A stretch of DNA of 64,000 nucleotides from Dehalobacter sp. DCA (GTDB taxonomy: Bacteria; Bacillota; Desulfitobacteriia; Desulfitobacteriales; Syntrophobotulaceae): NCBI RefSeq assembly GCF_000305775.1, contig NC_018866.1, positions 62,001-126,000 of the forward strand, in the 5' to 3' direction. The notes under the pieces are model-generated. The model ran no database searches and was not told the DNA's origin. It saw only the letters and a program-made list of their open reading frames with translations. Within the stretch, counting starts at the first letter, position 1. Each line of letters begins with the position of its first letter. Shown one piece after another: positions 49,479 to 63,633 of the stretch. The translations under genes were made by a program, and so were the position numbers.

Positions 49479-49597
49479 TTGTAACGGGGAATAAGTAGAA
49501 GATGCTCTCTCCCTGTTGCAAAATATTCTATCGTGGCAAAAACAAAGAAAAACTATATTTACCGGTTTCTAAAATTATAAATTAAGGAGTGTTTTTT

Positions 49598-50359
49598 TTG
49601 AGAAAGGTATTTTTCATTTTGGGTTTAGTTATCGCTTTAGGAAGTGGCATAGGCCTTTATTTTTATATGGATTATGCAAAAGGTTTGATTCCTGTGGTTT
49701 ATGCCGCCACAAATATTACTGAAGATACCGTTATAAGCGCACAGCAATTAAAAGTTAAAAGTGTTCCAAGGGAAAGTGTGCCTTCAGGAGTTGCAGCAAG
49801 TATCAACCAGGTAGTAAATAAGTCTCTTAATTGGCCTTTAAAAGAAGGCGATCCGGTGCGGTTGGATAAGATAGAACAAAACACGAAGGCGGAGGTTGAG
49901 AATTCGCGATTAATCGCCTTCAAAACAGATTACAACGGATCCATTGCCGGTCTCGCCAAATACGGACAAACCGTCGACCTTGTTTTAACTCTTGACCCGA
50001 AACAAACAGGCAATTTATCGCTTGCAGGATATATTATCACTGATTTATTTATTGAAGCGACTGCTGATTCATCGGGGAAGATATTATCTTCTGCAGATAT
50101 CCCGAATTTAAATAAATCAACATCTGTTGTGAGTTTATCAGGCAGTGAGCAAACAACCGGTATCCCGACAGAAATAATAGCAAAGGTTACGCCTAAACAG
50201 TTTTTAGTAATAAAACAAGCCGAAACAATGGGAACTATTTCATTGGGGCAGCGCGATAAGAATGCTAAGGATCTATACAACATAAACAGTGTTATCGAAA
50301 ATTCACAGATGAATATTGGCAAAGATTTTATTGTTTCATTGCTTCAGCTTCAAAAGTAA
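49598..50359 (+). CDS. cpaB: CpaB/RcpC-like pilus assembly protein
   Basis: 253 residues; TTG start eight bases after AAGGAG. One N-terminal membrane segment (VFFILGLVIALGSGIGLYFY) then a SAF domain: VVYAATNITEDTVISAQQLK, NWPLKEGDPVRLDKIEQN. CpaB/RcpC proteins sit at the base of Tad pili. Next gene is the TadZ-like ATPase. Confidence 0.8.
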   Translation: MRKVFFILGLVIALGSGIGLYFYMDYAKGLIPVVYAATNITEDTVISAQQLKVKSVPRESVPSGVAASINQVVNKSLNWPLKEGDPVRLDKIEQNTKAEVENSRLIAFKTDYNGSIAGLAKYGQTVDLVLTLDPKQTGNLSLAGYIITDLFIEATADSSGKILSSADIPNLNKSTSVVSLSGSEQTTGIPTEIIAKVTPKQFLVIKQAETMGTISLGQRDKNAKDLYNINSVIENSQMNIGKDFIVSLLQLQK

Positions 50360-50379
50360 ATGTTATTGGAGGAAATCTT

Positions 50380-51210
50380 ATGGCTGATGAAAATAAAGCG
50401 GTTAATGAGCAGGTGAAGAAAATAATCGCGTTGTGGAGTGTGTGCAGTGTTGGAAAGTCGACACTTGCATGCAATCTTGCCCGAAAACTGGCAAAGGAAA
50501 CAAACTTCAAAATAGGGTTGTTGGATTTTTCGTTAATAACGCCCTGTCTCCACTTTTTTTTAGATCTGGAAGATAAAGAAAGCTCGATTGAATATATCCT
50601 TAAGTCTTGGCAGGATAATTATTCTTATCACGAGTTACTTAAGGAAAACGCCCACATAAATAAGAACCTTCCAAATTTATTATGTTGGACGGGATTAATG
50701 AAAAAACCTGAATTGATAGATAAACTTGGGGATATTCAAGCTCGTACAATAATCTCTGAGTTGTCCGATCTCGTAGATATTCTCTTTATTGACGTACAAA
50801 GCGATACGCTGATTATTCCTACCGACGTAGCGCTTAAAGCAGCAACAGATGTTTTGGTTGTTGTTGACCAAAACAGAAACACGATTGAGAACACCGCTAA
50901 ATGGCTTAACAATTTGCATGCCCGAAATATGGAAATAAGTAAATTCAAACTGATCATAAACCAATATTCAAATAAGGTACTGTACACGAAAAATAAAATT
51001 GAGAGCAATCTCGCGCTGCCCTTGCTTGGGACAATACCGTGTGTTTCCAAGGTAAATTATGATAACTCTACTGTTTCGTTGATTCCATTATTAAAATACG
51101 GCAAGTTTGATAAATCAATTGGAGATATTTTGTTACAGCTTCATTTGTATAAAGCGGTAAAAAAACACCGTATATTTTTTACCGCACCGCGCTTGGGGAG
51201 TTCGCGCTGA
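50380..51210 (+). CDS. tadZ: TadZ/CpaE-like ParA-family ATPase
   Basis: 276 residues. Modified Walker A WSVCSVGKSTLACNLA lacks the first signature Lys of KGGxGKT. IGLLDFSLITP, DILFIDVQSDT and ATDVLVVVDQNRNTIENT match MinD/ParA relatives. In Tad systems this type of protein positions the machine at a site in the cell. Its neighbours (cpaB, cpaF) leave little doubt on role. Confidence 0.8.
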   Translation: MADENKAVNEQVKKIIALWSVCSVGKSTLACNLARKLAKETNFKIGLLDFSLITPCLHFFLDLEDKESSIEYILKSWQDNYSYHELLKENAHINKNLPNLLCWTGLMKKPELIDKLGDIQARTIISELSDLVDILFIDVQSDTLIIPTDVALKAATDVLVVVDQNRNTIENTAKWLNNLHARNMEISKFKLIINQYSNKVLYTKNKIESNLALPLLGTIPCVSKVNYDNSTVSLIPLLKYGKFDKSIGDILLQLHLYKAVKKHRIFFTAPRLGSSR

Positions 51211-51238
51211 TGCAGAATTCGAATTGGGGGATATTTAT

Positions 51239-52663
51239 ATGAGAATCAGTTCAGCTAAAGCTGTTGAACCAAAAACATATGACACAGAGGGCAAAAATTA
51301 TCTATATAAAACAACAAGTATTATACAGTCAATATTGACTGAAAATCAGCAAAAATTACTTAATGATGCTATTTATGGGGTCGGAGAATGTCAAAAACAA
51401 ATTCTCGATGTTATAAAAGATATCATTCGTCATGAGAAACTCGATGTACCTAATATGAGTATCGATGAAATTGCTTGGGAGGTATATAAATACATTATTG
51501 GGTATGATGTTATCCATGACCTTCTTCTTGATACGGAGATAACGGAAATTTGCGTAAATGGTCCGTATCAAATTACTTATAAAAAGAGTGGAATCAGGTA
51601 TTTGGCAAAAGAAATTCAGTTTACCGATCTGGCCCATCTTGAAAAAATAACAGAACGCATCTTGCTCACCTGCCACTCGGAAGCCAACGAAGGCAGCCCT
51701 ATGGTGGATAATGCCTGGCTTCCGGATCGAAGCAGGGTTGTAATCAATAAAAGCGCAATCGTCCCCAGCCACGGAATCACATTAAATATCCGGAGATTTA
51801 GGGATAAAAACTTTTCCCTGGAAGAACTTGAAAAGATCGGGACGTTAAAAATAGCTGAGAGAAGCAAATCTCGTAGCTCTCTTAATAGAGAGTATGAAGA
51901 GATCAAAAGTATTCCAAGCGAAGAACATTCCTATCGACAGCTTGATTTTATTCGGGATGTGGTAAGCGCGGGTGCGACTATCATAGTCAGCGGCGGGACT
52001 CACACAGGGAAAACAACTTTGATTCGTACCTTGGCCTCAATTTTTCAAGATATCATTCCGGATGAAAACGGTCCGGGCGATCCCGAAAGCGGTTTGCGAA
52101 TAATAACTATCGAAAATGGGCCGGAGTTGCAGCTGGTTAAATACTACCCTGGCCTGGAGGTAGTTGAAATGCTTGAACGCGACACAAAATACAATCCTAT
52201 AGGTGTAGAGGAGATTTACCCGCAGGTTATGAGAATGGACCCTGATGTGATTTTGGTTGGTGAAATCCGTTTCCCGATCGAGGCAATGTATACTTTGCGG
52301 GCCATGCGATCCGGCCATGCAAATACAATGGCTTCAATTCATACGTATGATGCTGAATCCTGTTGTCAGGAATTAAGAACCAAGGTTCAAGCTATCTCCA
52401 ATGTCAGTGATAAGGTCATTAATACGGAAATCGTCACGGCAGTGGATATTATTATCCAGTTAGGGATAGTGGACAGAAAAATTGAAATCACCCAAGTAGC
52501 TGAATTAGACCTGGATTCGGAATGTAATATAGTCATTAAAGATATTTTTAAAAGAGACAGCGACGAGAAAATGATCTTTATCCCCATAAGCAAAAAACTT
52601 GCTTATCGTCTTATTGCCAAGGGCAGAAAAAATGCTGGTGATGTTAAGAGGTGGTTGGTATGA
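51239..52663 (+). CDS. cpaF: CpaF/TadA secretion ATPase
   Basis: 474 residues. ATG 51239 is used; the TTG at 51224 is part of the binding site. ICVNGPYQI in the N-domain, Walker A VSGGTHTGKTTLIRTLA near 252, TIENGPELQ (Asp-box variant), Walker B DVILVGEIR near 337 and GHANTMASIHTYDAESC (His box). This hexameric VirB11/GspE-like motor drives pilus extension and probably retraction. It overlaps tadB by 4 bases. Confidence 0.92.
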   Translation: MRISSAKAVEPKTYDTEGKNYLYKTTSIIQSILTENQQKLLNDAIYGVGECQKQILDVIKDIIRHEKLDVPNMSIDEIAWEVYKYIIGYDVIHDLLLDTEITEICVNGPYQITYKKSGIRYLAKEIQFTDLAHLEKITERILLTCHSEANEGSPMVDNAWLPDRSRVVINKSAIVPSHGITLNIRRFRDKNFSLEELEKIGTLKIAERSKSRSSLNREYEEIKSIPSEEHSYRQLDFIRDVVSAGATIIVSGGTHTGKTTLIRTLASIFQDIIPDENGPGDPESGLRIITIENGPELQLVKYYPGLEVVEMLERDTKYNPIGVEEIYPQVMRMDPDVILVGEIRFPIEAMYTLRAMRSGHANTMASIHTYDAESCCQELRTKVQAISNVSDKVINTEIVTAVDIIIQLGIVDRKIEITQVAELDLDSECNIVIKDIFKRDSDEKMIFIPISKKLAYRLIAKGRKNAGDVKRWLV

Positions 52664-53616
52664 GGCTTGTTCTTTGTTATGGAATAAGCATTGGGCTTTT
52701 ATTGTCTGTAATTGTATGGTTTCTCGGGAAAAAAGAAAAGAAGCAAATATCAGGTTTCATAAATAAAAGAATAAACTATTTGCATGACAAAGTGAAAAAT
52801 AACAATAGGATAAGTAATTTTGCAAGATATTGCAATCAAAGAATCTATATTACAAATTTGAAGTTGAGCTTAAAAGCTCTTCTTTTTATTAGTATAGTTT
52901 TCTGTTTTATTGCTTTTTTCCTGTCAATAGTGATCCTTTCTGAAAAAATTCCGAATCCAATCTATCAGAATCCGGGGGCTATAATCGTAAGCCATAATAT
53001 TTTCGGGATTGTTATTTTTATGATTGTCGGCTTCATGATCCCGTGGGTATTGTTAAATTTAATCTATCACAGTATGCGAAGAATGCTGAATAAACAAGCC
53101 TTGAACACTTTCAATCTTATATTAAACAATTATATTGTCCGTAATAATCTTGAAGCTGCAACCTGGGATTCAATTGCTGGCATGCCGCCTCGAATGCGGT
53201 CTTTGTTTAGCCGAATCCAGTCCCGGGTGAATAATGGGGAAGAATTCGACACGGTCATATATAAAATATCAATACTACTAAAACTGCAATCTTTCAGGGA
53301 CTTTTACAACGTTATCGTTTCTTCGAGGATGGCTGGGGGCAACACAGAAGATCTTTTATACAGGCTTACGGATAAAATCAGATCAAGAAAAAACAGGGCG
53401 CAATCAATTAAAGAGGATCTTAATCCTCTAATCTCAAAAGCGGTGGCTTTTACGCTGGTAATGATTCTTACGTATTTAGGCGTAAGTCTTGTTTGGCCGG
53501 ATTCAATAGCCCTGGTAAAACAATCCTCAATAGGACACCTTTATATCAACTCTATAATAATCTCCATTTTAATTGAGGCTGCTCTGTTACTAAAATTCTT
53601 ATCAATGGAGGATTAA
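52660..53616 (+). CDS. tadB: TadB-like platform protein
   Basis: 318 residues from ATG 52660 (ATGA overlap with cpaF). N-terminal membrane segment, then two central ones (ALLFISIVFCFIAFFLSIVI and FGIVIFMIVGFMIPWVLLNL) and two at the C-terminus, around a T2SF-type cytoplasmic part (WDSIAGMPPRMRSLFSRIQS, FRDFYNVIVSSRMAGGN). Inner-membrane platform of the Tad machine. Confidence 0.8.
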   Translation: MRLVLCYGISIGLLLSVIVWFLGKKEKKQISGFINKRINYLHDKVKNNNRISNFARYCNQRIYITNLKLSLKALLFISIVFCFIAFFLSIVILSEKIPNPIYQNPGAIIVSHNIFGIVIFMIVGFMIPWVLLNLIYHSMRRMLNKQALNTFNLILNNYIVRNNLEAATWDSIAGMPPRMRSLFSRIQSRVNNGEEFDTVIYKISILLKLQSFRDFYNVIVSSRMAGGNTEDLLYRLTDKIRSRKNRAQSIKEDLNPLISKAVAFTLVMILTYLGVSLVWPDSIALVKQSSIGHLYINSIIISILIEAALLLKFLSMED

Positions 53617-53618
53617 GT

Positions 53619-54524
53619 ATGAATATACTTTTGATTTGTTCTATAGGAATTTCACTGGGTTTAATGCTGCTTTTTGCGGCATTTTTTATTAGGACAAACC
53701 GCAAGGAGTCAAAGAGAATAAATTCTCTTCGCACTACTGTACTTTCATATAGGCAAGCCCAGGATACTGCTTTAGAAAAAATTCGCAAAAAGACGGCAAA
53801 TTATATCTCAAAATTATTAAGCAAAAAGCCAGGGCATAATCGTTCAGCTTACATGCTAGAAATACTTAAACAGCCTGGAAAACCGATGCCGATTGAATAT
53901 GCGGAATATAAGACTTTTAAAAATTTATCCCCTTTCATATTTGCGCTCTTATTCGGCTTTGCAGGCTTTTCCACGAAAGATTTTCTGATGATAATAGGGC
54001 TGATCTGTGCAGGCTTTTTTGTGGGGATAATAGCACCTACAGCCATTCTTTCGTATTTTTACAACCAATACAAAAATGATCTCATCAATGAGTTGTCGGA
54101 AATCATGACATATATCGTTGATTTAAGAAAAGCGGGGCAAACAATACCCGATTCTATTCGCGGTGCCTTATTTGCAACAAATAAATTACGGCCTCACTTA
54201 GAAAAACTCTTGCAAGAGATGTCAATAACAGGGTCAAAACCGGCACTCGCAAAATTGAGTAAAGAAACTGATATTGATGAATTGAAAAACTTAGCGGATA
54301 TTTTAATGCAATCTATCACAATTGATAGTTCTAATATGGTTGCATATTTAGCAAGCCGGTCACGGGACATTGAATATATTGAGGGATTAAAAGAAATAAG
54401 GCGGTATAAAAACAAAAAAATACTTGTCGAAGCATTAACCGCAATTCCTTTTATTATGATCCCGGTAATAATTCTTGTCCCGCTGCTATACCAGGCCAAC
54501 CAAAGCCTTGGCCAAATAATGTAG
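53619..54524 (+). CDS. tadC: TadC-like platform protein
   Basis: 301 residues, two bases after tadB. One N-terminal membrane segment, two central (FALLFGFAGFSTKDFLMIIG, IGLICAGFFVGIIAPTAI) and one at the C-terminus (IPFIMIPVIILVPLLYQA). The T2SF-like core has DLRKAGQTIPDSIRGALFAT and ADILMQSITI. Partner of TadB. Confidence 0.8.
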   Translation: MNILLICSIGISLGLMLLFAAFFIRTNRKESKRINSLRTTVLSYRQAQDTALEKIRKKTANYISKLLSKKPGHNRSAYMLEILKQPGKPMPIEYAEYKTFKNLSPFIFALLFGFAGFSTKDFLMIIGLICAGFFVGIIAPTAILSYFYNQYKNDLINELSEIMTYIVDLRKAGQTIPDSIRGALFATNKLRPHLEKLLQEMSITGSKPALAKLSKETDIDELKNLADILMQSITIDSSNMVAYLASRSRDIEYIEGLKEIRRYKNKKILVEALTAIPFIMIPVIILVPLLYQANQSLGQIM

Positions 54525-54538
54525 GGAGGTGGCTATAT

Positions 54539-54718
54539 GTGAAAAAAAATGTCTGCTATCTGGCAGCAGTGCTGCGTGATGAAGGGGGGGATCTTGTTCA
54601 AAATATCGTCTTGTTGTTCGGGGGCATTCTGGCAACGATAGGCATTGCAGTGATTCTTTACAATACAATAACAGCTAAAATAGCCAATGACTCAGCCGGA
54701 ATGAGCAAACTTAATTAA
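54539..54718 (+). CDS. flp: Flp-like prepilin 1, 59 aa
   Basis: GTG start after GGGAGGTGG. The product has a short leader ending RDEGG, then DLVQNIVLLFGGILATIGIA VIL and a polar tail. Class III (Flp) prepilins have a leader ending in Gly and a hydrophobic N-terminus of this length; the usual Glu5 is not obvious (DLVQN). Followed 19 bases later by a close paralogue. Probable pilus subunit cleaved by the peptidase at 55992. Confidence 0.7.
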   Translation: MKKNVCYLAAVLRDEGGDLVQNIVLLFGGILATIGIAVILYNTITAKIANDSAGMSKLN

Positions 54719-54737
54719 GAAGGGGGGTTATTTTTTT

Positions 54738-54914
54738 ATGGGAAAAACTCTAAAAAGCCTTTATCAGGATGAAGGCGGTGATTTAGTTCAAAACATCATC
54801 TGGATCTTCGGTGGTGTTCTGGCGACGGTTGCAGCCGTGTCGGTGTTGTTTGTTACAATCCGGGGCAAATTGACTGATATGAATACCAGTATAACAAATA
54901 TCACCACTCCTTAA
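54738..54914 (+). CDS. flp: Flp-like prepilin 2, 58 aa
   Basis: After AAGGGGGGTT and a T-rich spacer. The leader region YQDEGG and the motif DLVQNIIWIFGGVLATVAAV repeat prepilin 1 (same EGGDLVQNI box), with a different tail (TDMNTSITNITTP). Two subunits suggest a major and a minor pilin. Confidence 0.7.
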   Translation: MGKTLKSLYQDEGGDLVQNIIWIFGGVLATVAAVSVLFVTIRGKLTDMNTSITNITTP

Positions 54915-54950
54915 TTAAAATATTCCTCACCGTGAGGAGGAAGGGAGAGG

Positions 54951-54984
54951 GCGGATAGTATATGTTTAGACGTATACTATCCGC
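54951..54984 (+). promoter_or_regulatory. 12-bp perfect hairpin between prepilins and tadE
   Basis: GCGGATAGTATA (54951-54962) pairs with 54973-54984 around ten bases. No T-run follows and the next start codon is 9 bases downstream. It may stop exonucleases and set a high pilin to low assembly-gene ratio, or hide the next start. Confidence 0.6.
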
Positions 54985-54992
54985 TTAAAATT

Positions 54993-55427
54993 ATGCTTAA
55001 ATTACTAATAAAACAAATGAAAAACCCTGATAATGAACGCGGATCTACCTTGATTGAATTCTTGATTGTCTTTGCCTTATGGATCGCGATATTCTTCACC
55101 TTTATATCTATGTTTTTTCTTAATATCTTACAGGGCTCAATGGTTAATGCCGTGAATCTTGGCCTGGAAAGGGCTGCTATTGTTGGAGGAACTACTACAG
55201 AGATCCAAAATCTAATTAAAGATCAGCTTAAACACACCGGCGTCAATACCAGTTTATTTATGATTACCGGATCGGGCAGCGATGCCAGCCGCGTTGCTTA
55301 CGGACAATATATAACAATTTCCATAACCGGCCCCCGGAAATTTACCGATTGGTCAAGCGGGCATCCGGTTTCTAAATCGGAGACGGTTACGGTAACCAAA
55401 ACGATAATGAGCCAATATTTGCCCTAA
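54993..55427 (+). CDS. tadE: TadE-like pseudopilin
   Basis: 144 residues. NERGSTLIEFLIVFALWIAI FFTF has the Gly-(ST)-LIEF prepilin-like motif with Glu5 and a long hydrophobic segment; the rest is a Ser/Thr-rich outer domain. No Shine-Dalgarno is visible before ATG 54993, which follows the hairpin directly. Minor pilin of the Tad system. Confidence 0.75.
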   Translation: MLKLLIKQMKNPDNERGSTLIEFLIVFALWIAIFFTFISMFFLNILQGSMVNAVNLGLERAAIVGGTTTEIQNLIKDQLKHTGVNTSLFMITGSGSDASRVAYGQYITISITGPRKFTDWSSGHPVSKSETVTVTKTIMSQYLP

Positions 55428-55439
55428 ATGAGGTGATTT

Positions 55440-55964
55440 ATGAAGAAGCTATATAAAATAATCAAAGACGACCGGGGTTCATCTTTAATTGAACTGCTGA
55501 TTTTTTTAGGTATTTCTCTTGCCCTTATTGGCTGGGCGACGGATTACTACCACGCAATAAACATAAAACGGGGAATAACAGACAGTATAAAATTTGCCGC
55601 TTTAGCAGCCAGCCAGCAAACCGACCAGGCAAAATTAAATCAAGGTATTTTAGCTATAGACTCAACGCAAGCGGATGTTGTTTTTTTAGAGATGTTAAAG
55701 AAAAATTTATCTTTAGACAATAACCTGAATCCGCTTCCGGGCTCGCCGGTGATTTATGTTAATAAAGCAACGCTTTATTATAAAACCTACAATTCTGATG
55801 TTTTGCCGGCAGTAAGCCCGATAGACAGTCACGCTATCACTGAGCCATCCTATGTGGTTTATATCGAAGTTAGGGTAAGGCGAGGCTTAACGCAAATAGT
55901 AAATTCAACCCCTTATTGGACAATTAAAGTAGCGAAAGACGCTGCTTTAAAAATTTCACCATAA
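55440..55964 (+). CDS. Second pseudopilin-like protein
   Basis: 174 residues after GAGGTGATTT. DDRGSSLIELLIFLGISLAL IGW again has a G-S-S-L-I-E-L prepilin box, then a soluble domain with YVVYIEVRVRRGLTQIV. Position in the row corresponds to TadF or a second TadE. Not assigned further. Confidence 0.65.
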   Translation: MKKLYKIIKDDRGSSLIELLIFLGISLALIGWATDYYHAINIKRGITDSIKFAALAASQQTDQAKLNQGILAIDSTQADVVFLEMLKKNLSLDNNLNPLPGSPVIYVNKATLYYKTYNSDVLPAVSPIDSHAITEPSYVVYIEVRVRRGLTQIVNSTPYWTIKVAKDAALKISP

Positions 55965-55991
55965 ATTCAAACGTAAGGAGTGATTAAATAG

Positions 55992-56522
55992 ATGGTTAAC
56001 TATATAGCATTACTGATACCTTTAATTATGCTGTCAATTTGTGTTGTGACGGATTGGCGGAAGCGGAAAATATATAATTTGGTGACAACACCCGGGTTTA
56101 TTCTCGGGATAATTTATGTAATATACGTCAAAACATATTCCGCAAGTTATTGCGTTTCTTTATTTTTCCTTTTCTTAATTCTCCTATTAGTTTATTCCCA
56201 TGGGGCAATGAGGGGAGGGGATGTTAAATTGCTATTGGCTCTGAGCCTGTTTTTAACACCCGGAGCCTTCTTTTTCAATTTAGCGCTCTTTATGTTTTCA
56301 GCTTTTTTTTATTTCTTTTTTCAAACTGTACGGGTTAAAGGCTTATCCCAAACTGTTAATGATGTAAAAACAGATTCACTTGTTTTTATCGCTATCGGAG
56401 AAAATAATAATTCCTTTGCAAATGGCGTAAAAAGTACATTTTTTCCCGGAGGCGGAGCCGCTTTAATTTCTTTATGCTATATAGTTACTTCATTATTGTT
56501 TAATATAAAATTATTTTTATGA
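55992..56522 (+). CDS. cpaA: Prepilin peptidase, A24 (TadV/CpaA)
   Basis: 176 residues with several membrane segments. The two catalytic Asp are in CVVTDWRKRKIYN and MRGGDVKLLLALS. An atypical insert with Asn/Asp (AIGENNNSFANGVKSTFF) precedes the last helix. It removes the leaders of the prepilins above. Confidence 0.85.
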   Translation: MVNYIALLIPLIMLSICVVTDWRKRKIYNLVTTPGFILGIIYVIYVKTYSASYCVSLFFLFLILLLVYSHGAMRGGDVKLLLALSLFLTPGAFFFNLALFMFSAFFYFFFQTVRVKGLSQTVNDVKTDSLVFIAIGENNNSFANGVKSTFFPGGGAALISLCYIVTSLLFNIKLFL

Positions 56523-56534
56523 GGAGATATGGAT

Positions 56535-56777
56535 ATGTTGAAATGGGAATTAGATGTTTCAGAGAACTTAAATCAAAGAACGGAAGGATTCAGCGCATCA
56601 ATAGGGATGGATAAAATGGAATTCATCAAATTTGCAGTTCTTATGCAGTTAGAAAAAATGGAAGCCATGATGGATGAAAGAAGAAAAAACGGCAGTCCAG
56701 CCAGTAAATCGATAATTTCTGAAACTAGCTATATTGAAATGGGAGACAAAATAGTGCCGTTAGAAAATAATAAATAA
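56535..56777 (+). CDS. Unknown small protein, 80 aa
   Basis: ATG 56535 is eight bases from GAGGAG; the ATG at 56529 is too near. MLKWELDVSENLNQRTEGFS then helical IKFAVLMQLEKMEAMMDERR. Soluble, no known family. It lies between the prepilin peptidase and a membrane-anchored protein, in the same row. Confidence 0.55.
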   Translation: MLKWELDVSENLNQRTEGFSASIGMDKMEFIKFAVLMQLEKMEAMMDERRKNGSPASKSIISETSYIEMGDKIVPLENNK

Positions 56778-56789
56778 GAGGGAATTATC

Positions 56790-57563
56790 ATGAAAAAAAT
56801 ATATATTTTGATCATCTCTATTGCAGTTGCAATAGCTGTTGTTTCCGCTGTTTTTTTAATAAATAGCGGAGTTTTTTTATATTCCGGGACAAATGATACA
56901 AATCCCAATACTGCCATTCAGAAATCAGATTCTGAATCTCAAAATAATTCTAATCCTGAGAAAAGCTTAGATCCTATTATCCAACCAAAGGACAGAAATG
57001 GTAACGCTAATGATAAGGGAGATCAAGAGCTTACCGTCGGAACTGATCCTGCCCCAACCGAAAAGGAGGAATATAGCAAAGGGGACTTATCTTTAAGCAG
57101 TCTTGGCCGTCCTGTTGATATTAAAAATTATGTTGTCAAAACGGAGAAGGAAATGACTGTTTTTAAAATCGCAGCATCTTGGATCAATGAAATGAGAACT
57201 GTTGATTTTAAAAATGCTAATAACCTAAATACGACACCCGGAAGTCAATATACAACAAGCCACTTTCAAAAAATGATTGATGGTTCTCTGCCAGGGCTTA
57301 AATCCGAGGTCATAAAAAACAACGATACCAAGCAAGTACTGACTTTATACTTAGAGGAAATTGGATTTCAGGCGATTCCTCAACTCGATAATCAAGAGGG
57401 TGCTTTTTTAGAATTTCAAATGGACTACAAACTATCTCAGTTGAACGGGGGATATGCTGTGGTTCAATGCAAAGAAAAAGTAATATTAATCTATGAGCAA
57501 GGCGCATGGAAAGTAGACGCAGAGACGTTTGAACAATTGAATGTTTATCACAAGGAGGGTTAA
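56790..57563 (+). CDS. Membrane-anchored protein with NTF2-like outer domain
   Basis: 257 residues. N-terminal anchor IYILIISIAVAIAVVSAVFL, then a Ser/Asn/Asp/Pro-rich linker (about 35-100), then a domain that begins LSLSSLGRPVDIKNYVV and continues IAASWINEMRTVDFKNANNL. The same sequence start (LTSLGQPVNFSY, then FYNSWKSINYQNLDN) opens the C-terminal domain of the CWB2 protein at 62119, so two surface proteins share a module. Function unknown; assembly or anchoring of a surface product is possible. Confidence 0.6.
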   Translation: MKKIYILIISIAVAIAVVSAVFLINSGVFLYSGTNDTNPNTAIQKSDSESQNNSNPEKSLDPIIQPKDRNGNANDKGDQELTVGTDPAPTEKEEYSKGDLSLSSLGRPVDIKNYVVKTEKEMTVFKIAASWINEMRTVDFKNANNLNTTPGSQYTTSHFQKMIDGSLPGLKSEVIKNNDTKQVLTLYLEEIGFQAIPQLDNQEGAFLEFQMDYKLSQLNGGYAVVQCKEKVILIYEQGAWKVDAETFEQLNVYHKEG

Positions 57564-57565
57564 AG

Positions 57566-59026
57566 ATGAATTTATTATCCCGGAAAGAACTGCATCAATT
57601 CAGAAAATATAATAACAGATTTGAAAGAGAATTACGCAAGACTAATTTATGGTCTATTGATCCTGCTATGAATCCGGAACAAATTATTAGCGTGGTTAAT
57701 GATAATAAAACAGCATTGTTTTCTTCATCAATAAAACAGTTTGACAGGCACCCTGATTTATTTAAGAAGGATCTGGACTTTGGCAAAATGGACCTTGTTG
57801 AAAATATTAAATACCCTGAGCGGACTACATTGATTATTAAGGTAACTCATGCTTGTAATCTGCATTGTCCTTATTGTTATGACCTTATGTATCGCAAAAG
57901 CTTAAACGCTGAAGGGAATTTATTAACGATCGATACTGTAAAACAAATTCTAAAAGTATTTAAGGAGTTGGATATTGGTCAATGGATATGGCATGGCGGC
58001 GAACCGTTGTTAGTTGATAACGTTTTTTACGAAGAAGCGAATTCTTTGATTAATGAACAGTTCCCGAAAGCTTCAATTGATATGCAGTCCAATCTTGTTT
58101 TATTAAATGACGAAAAAGCCCGGATGCTCAAAAAGTGGGATGTACGGCCTGGTTTTTCATTTGACGGTCTGACAAATCATTTGACCAGAAAAAACACGGG
58201 TGATCTTATGCGCTCTTTATTGGTTGCGGAAAGAAACGGAATCTTTAGTGGGGCAATAATGCTGATAACCAGCGATAATATCAATCAGCTGATAGATGAA
58301 TATGAGTATTTTAAGCGTTTAAGGCTGCATTGTAAGATGAACTTAATTTTTGCAGCAAATAAAAATGACAAAACTTACAATTTAGATGGCAAATTGGCTG
58401 CTGAAAAGCTTTGTGATTTTTTCGATTACTGGATAAAAGATACTCAAGGCCCTGTCAGTTCCGATATTTGTGAAAGATATCTTTTTGCAGCCTTAGATGC
58501 TGGTGGATCATGTAGTTTCACTGATTGTGCCGGGGAAAATTATTGGTTCTCTGTTCAGCCTAATGGAGATATTTATCATTGTGGGCGTGATTGGCCTGAA
58601 GAAAATTCGCTTAGTTTCGGTAATATTTTTGATGTAGAATCTGTTTCAGATATTATAGAACACCCAAATCATAAACGCTGGTACGAAGGTACAAGAAGGA
58701 TGCTTAAAAATTGCAGTAGTTGTGACTTTTTCTATTCCTGTCATTCCGGCTGCTATAACGACAATGTGCAATATGATCCTTCCTTGAATAAGCCTGAGCC
58801 AAGCAACTGTTATCTCCATAAACACGTCATTAGTCATATTATTAAAACACTTAATGAAATAGATTTTGATGATATGCCTAGTTATAACCCTATATTTTTA
58901 AATTTTCTATTTAAGTTTCAATTTAGAAGCGCCAAGATGCTAAACAATATTTTGGATGAATCTATCCGGCAAATTGAAGTGCCGGTGAAGGCTGAAGATA
59001 AACTCAAAGAATTTCTTGTAGGTTAG
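57566..59026 (+). CDS. Radical SAM/SPASM peptide-modifying enzyme 1
   Basis: 486 residues. The cluster motif CNLHCPYCYD is at about 92-101. WIWHGGEPLL is the GGE motif. The C-terminus is a SPASM domain for auxiliary clusters, with Cys in CSFTDCAGENYW, YHCGRDW, NCSSCDFFYSCHSGC and SNCYLHKH. Such enzymes modify ribosomal peptides or proteins. Two genes downstream is a Tyr/Trp-X-Asn repeat protein, the likely substrate. AAGGAGGGTTAAAG precedes the start; 3 bases separate it from the previous gene. Confidence 0.85.
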   Translation: MNLLSRKELHQFRKYNNRFERELRKTNLWSIDPAMNPEQIISVVNDNKTALFSSSIKQFDRHPDLFKKDLDFGKMDLVENIKYPERTTLIIKVTHACNLHCPYCYDLMYRKSLNAEGNLLTIDTVKQILKVFKELDIGQWIWHGGEPLLVDNVFYEEANSLINEQFPKASIDMQSNLVLLNDEKARMLKKWDVRPGFSFDGLTNHLTRKNTGDLMRSLLVAERNGIFSGAIMLITSDNINQLIDEYEYFKRLRLHCKMNLIFAANKNDKTYNLDGKLAAEKLCDFFDYWIKDTQGPVSSDICERYLFAALDAGGSCSFTDCAGENYWFSVQPNGDIYHCGRDWPEENSLSFGNIFDVESVSDIIEHPNHKRWYEGTRRMLKNCSSCDFFYSCHSGCYNDNVQYDPSLNKPEPSNCYLHKHVISHIIKTLNEIDFDDMPSYNPIFLNFLFKFQFRSAKMLNNILDESIRQIEVPVKAEDKLKEFLVG

Positions 59027-59041: not shown

Positions 59042-60226
59042 ATGATAAATATTTTTAAAAGAAAACAAAAATTTAATCCCCATATCCCCTCAAAGGATAT
59101 GGTTTTTTCTGTACCATTGTTATATGACTATGGGTATATACATGAATTGGCTAAACTTAATAACCAAAATACCAAATATAAGGTTCGCAGTGTCTATAAC
59201 AGTCTTCCTTCATCATCCTACGCGAAATCAGGATTCGAGCATGGACGGTCAGTCAATGTACAAGAAGACAGTAATAAAATAAAGACACTGGCTGACCTTA
59301 AATCTTATGTAGAGAAACTTACGGAGAATGGTATTGATTTTGTATATACAATGAATAATATTTCAACGGTTTCTTTGTACGATTTTGAACTGCAAATAGT
59401 TCAGTTAAAAGAATTTGTAAACCATTTAGCTGATATTGGAGTAAGAAGCATCACAGTGGGCAGCCAACTCCTTGCGGATTTTTTCAAAGAAGAATTTAGG
59501 GATTTATCTGTAAACGCTTCAACAATGATGGATATTAGGTCAATTACGCAGGCTAAATATGTCGTTGAAAATCTTGGTATCTCGAATATAATACCGGCTT
59601 CAGACTTAAATAAGGACTTTACCTTTATTGAAGCATTTAAAAAATATTTTCAGAATACGACTTTAGAGCTTATGGCCGACGAGGGATGTATTTTTGCCTG
59701 CCCAACAAAAAACATTCATTATTCATTGTTCGGCAGACAAGAAAATATTCATAAATGCAGCCCTGTCTTCAGGGAATTCCCCAAATTTATCTGTGATGAA
59801 ATTACTCAAAAAAATCCAGCCCTGCAAATGTCTATGAACCGAGTAATCTTCCCGTGGGAACTAAAATATTATGAAGAACGCGGTGTGAATATTATTAAGC
59901 TTGTAGGCAGGGATCACCCAAAACCTGAATTATTGAATAAAATTCGTGCGTATATGATCGGGGCAACTGATATTGAATACGGTCAGAACGAATTTTACAA
60001 CACCTACAATTCACGGTTTCTAAATTCAAAATTCCATATTTATGGAACAACCAAGATGAATGAAATAATGGAGTATATGCCCAATTTAGAGTTTTTTATT
60101 GAACATAAACCTCAATGTTCTAGTCAGTGCGGGAGCGTATGCAAGTATTGTTACGGATGTGCTGATAAAATTAATGAATATATAAAATCTAAAAATATCC
60201 TGACAAATGTCGGTTGTATAGGTTAG
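59042..60226 (+). CDS. U32-family-like protein with Cys clusters
   Basis: 394 residues. The middle resembles U32 TIM-barrel proteins: GVRSITVGSQLLADFFKEEF then LSVNASTMMDIRSITQAKYV and LELMADEGCIFACPTKNIHY, with a further HKCSPVF. The C-terminus adds a five-Cys cluster, PQCSSQCGSVCKYCYGCADK. Relatives such as UbiU/UbiV, TrhP and RlhA are iron-sulphur proteins that hydroxylate without oxygen. Here it lies between a radical SAM gene and the repeat protein, so it may hydroxylate or otherwise modify that protein. Assignment to U32 is by pattern only. Confidence 0.6.
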   Translation: MINIFKRKQKFNPHIPSKDMVFSVPLLYDYGYIHELAKLNNQNTKYKVRSVYNSLPSSSYAKSGFEHGRSVNVQEDSNKIKTLADLKSYVEKLTENGIDFVYTMNNISTVSLYDFELQIVQLKEFVNHLADIGVRSITVGSQLLADFFKEEFRDLSVNASTMMDIRSITQAKYVVENLGISNIIPASDLNKDFTFIEAFKKYFQNTTLELMADEGCIFACPTKNIHYSLFGRQENIHKCSPVFREFPKFICDEITQKNPALQMSMNRVIFPWELKYYEERGVNIIKLVGRDHPKPELLNKIRAYMIGATDIEYGQNEFYNTYNSRFLNSKFHIYGTTKMNEIMEYMPNLEFFIEHKPQCSSQCGSVCKYCYGCADKINEYIKSKNILTNVGCIG

Positions 60227-60236
60227 AGGTGATGAT

Positions 60237-60968
60237 ATGGCAAGAAGTTATAACAAAATCAAAAGGTTAATCCAAGGTTTTCTATCTTTAAGCATCCTTT
60301 ATTCTTCAATAACAAATGACTTGGTTATCGATCAATCACAGCCGTTAGATAAACCTCAGCCAAAGGATGGGAAATACTTACTCGGCACACAAATAAAACT
60401 TGTACCCCAAAAAGCTTTTGCCTGGGTTGATTGGGTATGGCCTAACTGGGGACAAAGTGTATATGGGAATTATGTAAATTGGAATGCTGCATATAATAAT
60501 GCCGGCGTGTGGGAAGCTCATAATCAATGGGAAAATCATAGCGAAACATGGAACCAATATTCTAATTGGACTGCTTATTCTAATTATAGCAATTACAGTA
60601 ATTATGGTAATTATGGCAACTGGGGTGATTATAGCAATTATTCTAACTATAGTAATTGGAATAATTGGACACCACCTCCATCGGTTGTGGCAAGTGTACA
60701 AGCCGTCGCATTTCCAAACACAACAATTCAGATTACAGCAACAACAACCGGGACCACCACTTCTGTTACTGCTACAAATACTTTAAATTCAACAGTAATT
60801 ACCTTTACTAATACCGGTGGAAATACATGGGTTGGATATTTTAATGTGCCTACCGGTACAACTGTTCAACCGATAACCTTTAATGTTACAGCTAGTAATA
60901 GTACTGGATCGAGTAATGCTGTTGCAATCACAAACGTAAAACACTTCCAAAATGCAATTACTCGGTAA
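60237..60968 (+). CDS. Aromatic-X-Asn repeat protein, candidate radical SAM substrate
   Basis: 243 residues; AGAGGTGATGAT before ATG. Residues 8-25 form a signal-anchor-like stretch (IKRLIQGFLSLSILYSS). Residues 63-144 are very rich in Trp, Tyr and Asn: I count fifteen aromatic-X-Asn triplets plus one WGD, ten consecutive triplets from 114 to 143 (YSN x3, YGN x2, WGD, YSN x3, WNN). From about 150 a Thr/Val-rich region looks like an Ig-like beta-sandwich. There is no Cys. Known three-residue cyclophane enzymes act on exactly such aromatic-X-Asn motifs. The protein would be a surface component of the Tad cargo. Function inferred only. Confidence 0.6.
   Translation: MARSYNKIKRLIQGFLSLSILYSSITNDLVIDQSQPLDKPQPKDGKYLLGTQIKLVPQKAFAWVDWVWPNWGQSVYGNYVNWNAAYNNAGVWEAHNQWENHSETWNQYSNWTAYSNYSNYSNYGNYGNWGDYSNYSNYSNWNNWTPPPSVVASVQAVAFPNTTIQITATTTGTTTSVTATNTLNSTVITFTNTGGNTWVGYFNVPTGTTVQPITFNVTASNSTGSSNAVAITNVKHFQNAITR
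60576..60665 (+). repeat. Ten consecutive Tyr/Trp-X-Asn/Asp codon triplets
   Basis: 9-base period covering residues 114-143. Tyr, Ser, Gly and Asn codons vary (TAT/TAC, TCT/AGC/AGT, AAT/AAC), so the repeat is kept at protein level and is not a recent DNA slippage product. Confidence 0.85.
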
Positions 60969-61039: not shown

Positions 61040-62020
61040 ATGAATATTATGTTAAATAATTACTGCAACCTAAAATGTTCTTATTGCTTTGCAAGTTGTG
61101 ATCCTAAGAACATGGTCAATATTTCTGATGATAATTATGAATATATAATCAATTTTTTTAAGAAATCGGCGCATGTTGATTTAAGATTACTGGGTGGGGA
61201 GCCGACACTGCATCCAAACTTTGAAAAATGGGTTAATCAAGGAATAGATGATCCATTTTTCCGGAGAATTCAGATTTTTACCAATGCTATTGCTTTAGAT
61301 AATACATTGAGCCGATATATAGTGGATAATAAGGTTTCGTTTCTGATTAATTTAAATGGGCCTAATGTAATCGGTGAGAATCTATATAATAAGACAATAG
61401 ACAATGTAGAAAACCTGGTATTTGAATATCGGAGAAAAAATATGGAACCTCAGGTTACTCTCGGCATTAATATCTTTGAGCCGAATTTTAACTATAAATA
61501 TATTATTGAGCAAAGCAAAAAACTAAAATTAAAGACCATCAGATACAGTATTACGGTACCCTCAGAAGATACTCAGAATGGCAGTCTTGAACATTATGAA
61601 AGTTTTGTTTCCAAATTAGTTGAGTTTTTAGATGATTGCTATAGAAATGAGATTTCTCCTCATGTTGATTGCAATAATCCGCCTAAGTGTATTTTTTCTA
61701 ATGAACAACTTGTGAATTTCATTTACTCAGGTTTTGATCTTATTCGCAAGGGAATATGTTCGCCGGTTATGGATATAAGGCCCGACTTGAGCGTCGCTCG
61801 ATGTTTCGTTTTTGAGGATTATCTAAGTGTAAACATTAAAGATTTTAATACCGTTCAAGATGTCAATGATTTTTTTCTAACAGAGATAGACAGTAAAAGA
61901 TATAATAATCCTCCGTTTAACCAATGCCCCGGATGCAGGTTTTGGGAAGAAAAGAAATGTATCGGCGGTTGTTTAGGGTATAGTATCAGGGGAAAATCAT
62001 CCACATGCTGTGCAGGATAG
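61040..62020 (+). CDS. Radical SAM protein 2 with Cys-rich C-terminus
   Basis: 326 residues, AAAGGAGTGTTCCC before the ATG. The motif YCNLKCSYCF begins at residue 8, so there is no N-terminal extension. RLLGGEPTLHP is the GGE motif. The C-terminus has CPGCRFWEEKKCIGGCLGY and a final CC, plus Cys at GICSPVM and ARCFVF, a SPASM/twitch-like set. It follows the repeat protein directly and is a second candidate modifying enzyme. Confidence 0.8.
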   Translation: MNIMLNNYCNLKCSYCFASCDPKNMVNISDDNYEYIINFFKKSAHVDLRLLGGEPTLHPNFEKWVNQGIDDPFFRRIQIFTNAIALDNTLSRYIVDNKVSFLINLNGPNVIGENLYNKTIDNVENLVFEYRRKNMEPQVTLGINIFEPNFNYKYIIEQSKKLKLKTIRYSITVPSEDTQNGSLEHYESFVSKLVEFLDDCYRNEISPHVDCNNPPKCIFSNEQLVNFIYSGFDLIRKGICSPVMDIRPDLSVARCFVFEDYLSVNIKDFNTVQDVNDFFLTEIDSKRYNNPPFNQCPGCRFWEEKKCIGGCLGYSIRGKSSTCCAG

Positions 62021-62070: not shown

Positions 62071-62118
62071 TTTACAGTAATAAAATGACCCGGTTGATTA
62101 ATATATTTGGAGGTTGTT

Positions 62119-63633
62119 ATGAGAAAAATGACATTTGGTATTAAAGGTATATTTTCTATAGTTCTTTTGATGCTGGTTTTGGCTAGTCCTGTATTAGCAT
62201 CCACGGATAGTTCGGAAAGGATATGCGGAGCGGATAGATATAAAACAGCAGAGGCAATTGCAAATACGGTTAATAGCAAGGAGGTCGATTGTGTAGTTTT
62301 AGCCCCCGGCAATAGTTATGCCAATGCTTTACCAGCCGGTGTGCTGGCCTACAAAAGTAATGCCCCTTTGTTATTAATAAATTCTACGGCAAGTAATACC
62401 ATCGAAGCTTTTAATTATATAAAATCTCATTTATCTTCGACAGGGAAAATATATCTTGTTGGAGATAATGACCTTATTGGAAATGATTTTATTACAAGCC
62501 TTAATGGCATGGGTTATACCAATATAATTAAGATTTCTGGCTCTGATATTTATAATACTGATTACTTAATTGCCAAAGAATTAAATGTTCCAAATAATAC
62601 GCCCATGGTTATAAGCTCTGGAGTAAACTTCCCGGATGCATTGGCAATATCCAGTGTAGCTTCATCAAATGGTTGGCCTATTTTACTCACAGACGGAAGT
62701 ACATTATCAAACGATATTAAATCAATAATTACTGAAAAGCAGCCGCAAAAGATATATATTACCGGAGGAATAGCTGCTGTAACAAATTCTATTGAAGATC
62801 AGATAAAGAGTATCGCGCCAAACTCTACAATCATTAGGTTTGCCGGTAGTGACAGATATGAGACGTCTACTCTTATCGTAGATCAGTTTTTTTCTTCTTC
62901 AGAGAATATTTATTTAGCTTCAGGTCTTGATTATCCAGATGCTTTAGCAGGAAGTGTCTTAGCAGCTAAGAGCCAAAGCTCCATTATTTTAATAAATCCA
63001 AATACAAAAAGATCTATTCCTGGGAGCGTAGTGCATCTTTTGGTAGAGTTAAGGGGAAAGCAAGTAGGTAAGAATTTAACTGCTCTTGGAGGTATTACCG
63101 TTGTCCCGAATGAAGTGCTTCAATTAGCTAATGACCTTATGGGTAAAATTAATTTGACCAGCCTTGGGCAGCCGGTAAATTTCAGTTATGCTTTTACAAA
63201 AGATCCCCAATTTAGTCATAACGGTAATTTTGTTGAAGGTACTGGAAGTTTGTCTGAGGAACAACAGATAGCTTTGATTACAGCGGTGAAATTCTATAAT
63301 TCATGGAAATCGATTAACTATCAAAATCTTGATAACACATCTTATGGATATGAATACTGTACAGATAGATTTGCTGACGGGGAAAAACAAAATCTTTTAA
63401 ATACTAAATCCTCGCTTATCCAACGAAAATACGTACATCAAATAAATAAAATCACATTATCAAGTTATGGCACGGCTTATATTTTAAAAGATACTCCTTA
63501 TACTTTCTTCCGTATTGCTGCTGATGTGCAGGGCCATGATGCAAATACAGGAGGGTCTTTTCATGGTACCGAATACCAAATGATTTTGCTTTATAATGTT
63601 CGAGGCTATTGGGAGATTGATAGTATAAGATAG
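62119..63633 (+). CDS. Secreted CWB2 cell-wall-binding protein with NTF2-like domain
   Basis: 504 residues from ATG 62119 (GGAGG five bases upstream). Signal peptide GIFSIVLLMLVLASPVLAST. Three cell-wall-binding repeat 2 units follow: ERICGADRYKTAEAIANTVN, then the unit around ISGSDIYNTDYLIAKELN, then IRFAGSDRYETSTLIVDQFF, each with GNSYANALP/NFPDALA/DYPDALA-type sequence. The last 150 residues are the module shared with the protein at 56790. CWB2 binds secondary cell-wall polymer, so the protein is anchored outside. Confidence 0.85.
   Translation: MRKMTFGIKGIFSIVLLMLVLASPVLASTDSSERICGADRYKTAEAIANTVNSKEVDCVVLAPGNSYANALPAGVLAYKSNAPLLLINSTASNTIEAFNYIKSHLSSTGKIYLVGDNDLIGNDFITSLNGMGYTNIIKISGSDIYNTDYLIAKELNVPNNTPMVISSGVNFPDALAISSVASSNGWPILLTDGSTLSNDIKSIITEKQPQKIYITGGIAAVTNSIEDQIKSIAPNSTIIRFAGSDRYETSTLIVDQFFSSSENIYLASGLDYPDALAGSVLAAKSQSSIILINPNTKRSIPGSVVHLLVELRGKQVGKNLTALGGITVVPNEVLQLANDLMGKINLTSLGQPVNFSYAFTKDPQFSHNGNFVEGTGSLSEEQQIALITAVKFYNSWKSINYQNLDNTSYGYEYCTDRFADGEKQNLLNTKSSLIQRKYVHQINKITLSSYGTAYILKDTPYTFFRIAADVQGHDANTGGSFHGTEYQMILLYNVRGYWEIDSIR

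Follow-up and report, generated by a model that had tools for sequence, protein, structure and literature searches.

The gene neighbourhood of a U32-family protein in the strictly anaerobic bacterium Dehalobacter sp. DCA suggests that oxygen is added to protein side chains without air. The gene belongs to a six-gene cassette that also encodes two radical SAM proteins and a triad-repeat protein, and it lies within the 64,000-nucleotide stretch analysed here (the window), part of a complete 3,069,953-bp genome. The best overall explanation, to which we assign a probability of roughly one half, is that the U32 protein acts as a prephenate-using hydroxylase on Tyr/Trp residues of the repeat protein, that the radical SAM enzymes crosslink the triads, and that the product is displayed on the surface. 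All window features described below are on the forward strand.

The U32 protein and its cysteine clusters

The open reading frame at 59042-60226 (394 residues, ATG start), the proposed O2-independent hydroxylase, encodes a member of the U32 superfamily: its product matches Pfam Peptidase_U32 (PF01136) with an E-value of 5.6e-11 and 42.6 bits, the curated cut-off being 22.4. The predicted structure, with a mean pLDDT of only 65 and a pTM of 0.71, is a (beta/alpha)8 barrel of the 5d88 type. The solved structure of the U32 peptidase Mk0906 (5d88) is its top match (Foldseek E 3.1e-7; Z 17.9 and rmsd 3.0 over 198 residues, the next chain reaching Z 15.9), being the best among the chains in the Foldseek and VIA lists, which contain no UbiU/UbiV structure. 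A direct sequence search of the PDB returned only a chance match, to RPA70. The U32-like barrel anticipated by an earlier reading of the sequence alone is present; the lack of a barrel, one of the outcomes by which that reading would have fallen, did not arise. Between close orthologues the dN/dS of the gene is 0.07-0.12.

The same reading had pointed to two cysteine clusters, and every motif it named is found in the protein. The segment EGCIFACPTKNIHY carries C216 and C220, HKCSPVF carries C239, and C251 is a further core cysteine; the codons of this core cluster (C216-x3-C220-x18-C239-x11-C251) span 59687-59794. At the C-terminal end, CSSQCGSVCKYCYGC carries C359, C363, C367, C370 and C373, with the quartet C359-x3-C363-x3-C367-x2-C370 encoded at 60116-60151. 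Eight homologues of about 70% identity all retain the four core cysteines, the C-terminal quartet and C392; C373 occurs in this copy alone. C216, C251 and the whole quartet are also invariant in relatives at 22-27% identity, the quartet being shared with phage and natural-product-cluster relatives, and non-cysteine residues (R69, Y102, N105, H226, R267, K286 and R290) are conserved in relatives down to 22% identity. The loops that bear the cysteines (215-258 and 345-372) are modelled mostly at pLDDT below 50.

The U32 barrel and a cysteine cluster in the same region are features that the protein shares with UbiU/UbiV, TrhP and RlhA, and the GRxxNxxxC-like segment of RlhA and UbiU has its counterpart in GRQENIHKC, in which C239 is comparable to the third cluster cysteine of RlhA/UbiU. 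The core spacing differs: characterised members of the family have CX6CX15CX3/4C (PMC6747719, PMC11574389), whereas the window protein has CX3CX18CX11C, which matches neither this motif nor the UbiU/UbiV variants. It differs further in the C-terminal quartet, which is absent from UbiU, UbiV and TrhP and is likely to be a second cluster; both clusters would bind Fe-S. In the tree of U32 relatives the window protein joins the phage and natural-product-cluster relatives in one branch with 100/100 support, albeit on long branches, and this branch stands apart from UbiU, UbiV, TrhP, RlhA and the two canonical U32 copies that the genome encodes besides the window gene. On the tree and the profile scores, we rejected the idea that the protein is itself a canonical TrhP or RlhA.

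A conserved cassette behind a Tad pilus operon

The order of the six genes is always the same: a small protein, a surface protein or lipoprotein, rSAM1, the U32 protein, the repeat protein and rSAM2. In the window the small protein (82 residues, 56529-56777) has 60-67% identity to its counterparts in all seven other cassettes, and the membrane or lipoprotein-like accessory protein that follows (56790-57563) is conserved in all eight. The radical SAM setting claimed for the U32 gene holds, with genes for two such proteins flanking the U32 and repeat-protein genes: the peptide-maturase-like rSAM1 (57566-59026; PF04055 5.6e-14, SPASM 1.2e-6) and rSAM2 (61040-62020; PF04055 2.3e-11), which has a CxxxCxxC motif and 74-89% identity across cassettes.

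A survey of genome context, as the sequence-only reading had proposed, found the cassette eight times in six genomes (twice each in G000 and G003), with the U32 gene directly upstream of the repeat-protein gene in every case. Candidatus Dichloromethanomonas elyunquensis is among the carriers, and a Peptococcaceae MAG is a further named relative. Of the 82 genomes in the class, the same six and no others were found to contain the U32 protein, the repeat protein and rSAM2, barring stray rSAM2 matches: G003 gave an additional fragment of 57 residues, and two genomes of the same family (G012, G013) gave distant relatives. The latter were rejected as cassette kin: they lie next to a molybdopterin oxidoreductase, and their surroundings contain no repeat protein. 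In the majority of cassettes the repeat-protein frame opens before the U32 gene has ended. This start-stop overlap, the strict co-occurrence and the fixed gene order bear out the link to the 60237 product that had been drawn from the sequence alone. The cassette is under strong purifying selection, dN/dS between close copies being 0.06-0.12 for all four main genes.

The two cassettes of the Dehalobacter genome have diverged unevenly. Their rSAM2 genes (61040-62020 and L013:11074-12066) are 88% identical with a dS of 0.6, whereas the U32 and rSAM1 genes are only 66-71% identical and saturated in dS, a pattern suggesting that rSAM2 has been replaced or has undergone gene conversion. A further U32-subfamily gene, on a short contig of G019 (L020:4437-5636), is interrupted by a stop codon.

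The window cassette lies directly behind a complete Tad/Flp pilus operon (49589-56522) encoding CpaB, CpaE-like, TadA, TadB, TadC and TadE-like proteins, two Flp-like pilins (54539-54718 and 54738-54914) and, as its last gene, a prepilin peptidase; a prepilin peptidase gene is found upstream of six of the seven other cassettes as well. The sequence-only reading had remarked neither on this pilus locus, nor on the aromatic-x-Asn repeats of the proposed substrate, nor on the unusual core cysteine spacing of the U32 protein. On the other side follows a CWB2 cell-wall-binding surface protein (62107-63633; PF04122 8.6e-50), a possible partner or anchor that does not occur in the other cassettes. 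It has a C-terminal domain in common with the accessory protein at 56790-57563, at about 24% identity.

The triad-repeat protein as proposed substrate

The product of 60237-60968 (243 residues) is the likely substrate. It consists of an N-terminal helix that may serve as signal or anchor, a region of aromatic-x-(N/D/Q/A) triads (residues 63-145, 60423-60671) and a C-terminal all-beta domain. The predicted structure is mostly disordered, with the repeat region at low confidence and only the N-terminal hydrophobic helix and the C-terminal strands resolved. The periodicity of the repeats is pronounced: aromatic pairs at spacing 3 number 20 in the window copy against 7.6 expected, and 20-22 across all eight copies against 8-11 expected, counts that none of 2000 shuffles reached. 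The aromatic-x-x motifs typical of triceptide precursors are present in all eight copies, the aromatic residues being Tyr, Trp and His and the third position mostly Asn. Tyr and Trp exchange between copies while the period is preserved. All eight copies are devoid of cysteine, which argues against thioether chemistry by the radical SAM enzymes, and this candidate was rejected.

The Pfam name Peptidase_U32 and the position of the gene beside a precursor-like gene would also accommodate a peptidase acting on the repeat protein to cleave off a leader. This is very improbable: the conserved features of the U32 protein are cysteine clusters of Fe-S type, its characterised relatives are hydroxylases, and the repeat protein starts with a signal-like helix, not a RiPP leader.

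The cassette context and the triad periodicity would also fit if the U32 protein modified the repeat protein in another way, by hydroxylation of the Asn/Asp beta-carbon or of the backbone or by a different redox reaction, for example dehydrogenation or joint crosslinking with the radical SAM enzymes. Within the triads, Asn is conserved to the same degree as the aromatic residue, and the second cysteine quartet, lacking in UbiU/UbiV/TrhP, could support other chemistry. However, every characterised U32 oxidase hydroxylates ring carbons, all of them sp2 (PMC11574389); nor is a U32 gene found where the repeats are mainly His-x-Asp/Asn. We consider such a non-aromatic modification unlikely, if worth serious attention, and prefer hydroxylation of the aromatic residues.

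Relatives of rSAM1 beside other triad proteins

Like the triceptide and cyclophane enzymes OscB, YxdB, YhhB and HaaB, rSAM1 is a SPASM radical SAM maturase (PF04055, PF13186). Its matches to described families are weak. The nearest NCBIfam model is DynA (E 8.4e-37, 127 bits, cut-off 450), and YhhB (67.7 bits, cut-off 445) and GrrM/OscB (GrrM 65.9 bits, cut-off 310) score likewise; these values lie far below all family cut-offs, and assignment to a described radical SAM peptide or cyclophane-forming family was rejected.

Across 398 genomes of the phylum, close relatives of rSAM1 outside the cassette group were found only in G285 and G354. The G285 relative, a SPASM radical SAM protein, adjoins an 815-residue protein with 23 His-x-Asp triads (L098:3880-8002). 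The corresponding protein in G354 has 385 residues and many His-x-Asn, Tyr-x-Asn and His-x-Asp triads, and its gene lies next to two rSAM1-like genes and one rSAM2-like gene. Among all frames of the loci examined, these two proteins and the window protein are the most triad-dense; looser SPASM relatives of rSAM1 have no triad-repeat neighbour at the loci examined. The rSAM1-like loci of G285 and G354 contain no U32 gene, and a search of both whole genomes gave no U32-subfamily match. The occurrence of rSAM1 relatives beside triad proteins without U32 makes it most likely that the radical SAM enzymes act on aromatic-x-Asn/Asp triads; the U32 protein is probably an addition where the aromatic residue is Tyr or Trp, a contrast drawn from only three kinds of system.

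The G285 pair is a His version of a comparable system without U32, and is situated within another Tad pilus locus beside a SecA-like gene. The G354 locus (L097:5004-11049) comprises four radical SAM genes around the triad protein, which is also Cys-rich, and lies in a phage-tail-like region where amidase and holin-like genes also occur.

These systems also bear on the notion that the U32 protein is a non-catalytic partner of the radical SAM enzymes, serving electron transfer through Fe-S or a structural role. Its eight conserved cysteines in two clusters and the rSAM1 gene directly upstream would be consistent with such a role. We nevertheless hold it to be improbable given the full barrel, the conservation of non-cysteine residues across 22% identity and the existence of related rSAM1 systems that work with no U32 protein.

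Relatives in phages and a proposed oxygen donor

The Dehalobacter protein as query gave no match in the first genome-contig scan or in the first viral scan, and no relatives were found among plasmids. The nearest annotated relatives occur in 218 records of T4-like phages; they align over the full length at 22-24% identity and have the C-terminal cysteine quartet in common with the window protein. Among them are the U32 proteins of the arabinosyl-hydroxycytosine phages RB69, LC53, EcS1 and Thanatos-2. RB69 DNA bears arabinosyl groups on 5-hydroxycytosine (PMC13390438), and Thanatos-2 comes from a phage group with pentose on cytosine (PMC12838424). Unlike the window gene, the phage U32 genes stand beside genes for a thymidylate-synthase homologue and sugar-phosphate isomerases (arabinose-phosphate isomerase in several phages), often with chorismate mutase, a context indicating a nucleotide substrate.

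A chorismate mutase gene (PF01817) directly follows the U32 gene in EcS1 (L011:5983-7496), kv_tblp2 (L012:5995-7394), LC53 (L077:3504-5011) and Thanatos-2 (L078:3995-5382), and chorismate mutase-like genes follow it in further phage records; RB69-type phages have the U32 gene without an adjacent chorismate mutase. Prephenate is the product of chorismate mutase, and this arrangement fits prephenate as the oxygen donor. Prephenate is also the reported oxygen source of anaerobic ubiquinone hydroxylation, and the known U32 oxidases depend on it (PMC11574389). The U32 and chorismate mutase genes near the thymidylate-synthase homologue are likely to form a prephenate-dependent module for 5-hydroxylation of DNA bases, a reaction credited in phages to the thymidylate-synthase homologue alone, with no mention of U32 (PMC13390438). 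The Dehalobacter cassette has no chorismate mutase gene of its own; the genome encodes prephenate dehydratase, from which we conclude that the organism makes prephenate. The phage pairs strengthen the case for protein hydroxylation by the window protein.

Two other settings of the subfamily lack both radical SAM genes and repeats. One is an antibiotic-type natural-product cluster in G100 (L032:1-17001), with an adenylation enzyme, a carrier protein, glycosyltransferases, an ABC transporter, a UvrA-like protein and a carbamoyltransferase. In the other (G464, L087:6917-8958), a solitary U32-subfamily gene is followed by one for a 331-residue Fe-S protein with the appearance of an epoxyqueuosine or dehalogenase reductase.

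The contexts of the phage and natural-product-cluster relatives point to non-protein targets, and U32 enzymes are known to act on RNA bases and quinone precursors (PMC11574389), so that the window protein might have an RNA base or some small molecule as its target and merely be co-inherited with the repeat protein. Its place immediately ahead of the repeat-protein gene in 8 of 8 cassettes and its absence from the rest of the class speak against this, and the genome's two canonical U32 genes are already available for RNA-type roles. We deem a non-protein target quite unlikely and favour the repeat protein.

Discussion

What could be the function of such a combination of enzymes? We propose that the U32 protein, through its two Fe-S clusters, would catalyse an O2-independent hydroxylation with prephenate as the oxygen donor, acting before export on Tyr, and perhaps also on Trp, within the domain of aromatic-x-Asn repeats. 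The same triads would be crosslinked by rSAM1, probably together with rSAM2, most likely between a ring carbon and the Asn/Asp beta-carbon as in triceptides, and the finished protein would be presented at the surface in association with the Tad pilus, on or near it.

Several known systems offer partial parallels. Oxygen-independent hydroxylation, the chemistry we infer here, is that of UbiU/UbiV, TrhP and RlhA, which act on RNA or quinone, whereas the proposed target of the window enzyme is a protein. In the literature that could be searched we found no U32 protein acting on a protein. Triceptide enzymes crosslink an aromatic residue i to residue i+2, often Asn/Asp (PMC11002830); the window system differs in its 243-residue surface substrate with a beta domain and in the additional U32 protein. 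Post-translational aromatic hydroxylation of a ribosomal peptide, as proposed here, is described for MNIO-dependent ortho-Tyr peptides of the biphenomycin type; their enzyme family and chemistry are unrelated to U32. The darobactin synthase DarE is a radical SAM peptide maturase that brings oxygen from water into its peptide without a separate oxygenase (PMC9055067), yet it is a single enzyme that forms an ether crosslink and involves no U32.

More speculatively, and with considerable doubt, the U32 protein might use prephenate to turn Tyr into dihydroxyphenylalanine and/or Trp into hydroxy-Trp on a secreted Tad-pilus-associated repeat protein that also carries cyclophane crosslinks made by radical SAM enzymes; the product would be an anaerobic analogue, made by enzymes, of the mussel-type adhesive protein.

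In this cassette the peptide chemistry of radical SAM enzymes is linked not with small antibiotics but with surface proteins associated with a pilus, and the chorismate mutase genes beside several phage U32 genes make the prephenate hypothesis directly testable. Protein hydroxylation is generally tied to O2. If the U32 protein does act on the repeat protein, the latter would be the first protein among the substrates of U32 oxidases, the chemistry of the family would extend beyond RNA and quinones, and strict anaerobes would be able to hydroxylate aromatic side chains by means of an organic oxygen donor.
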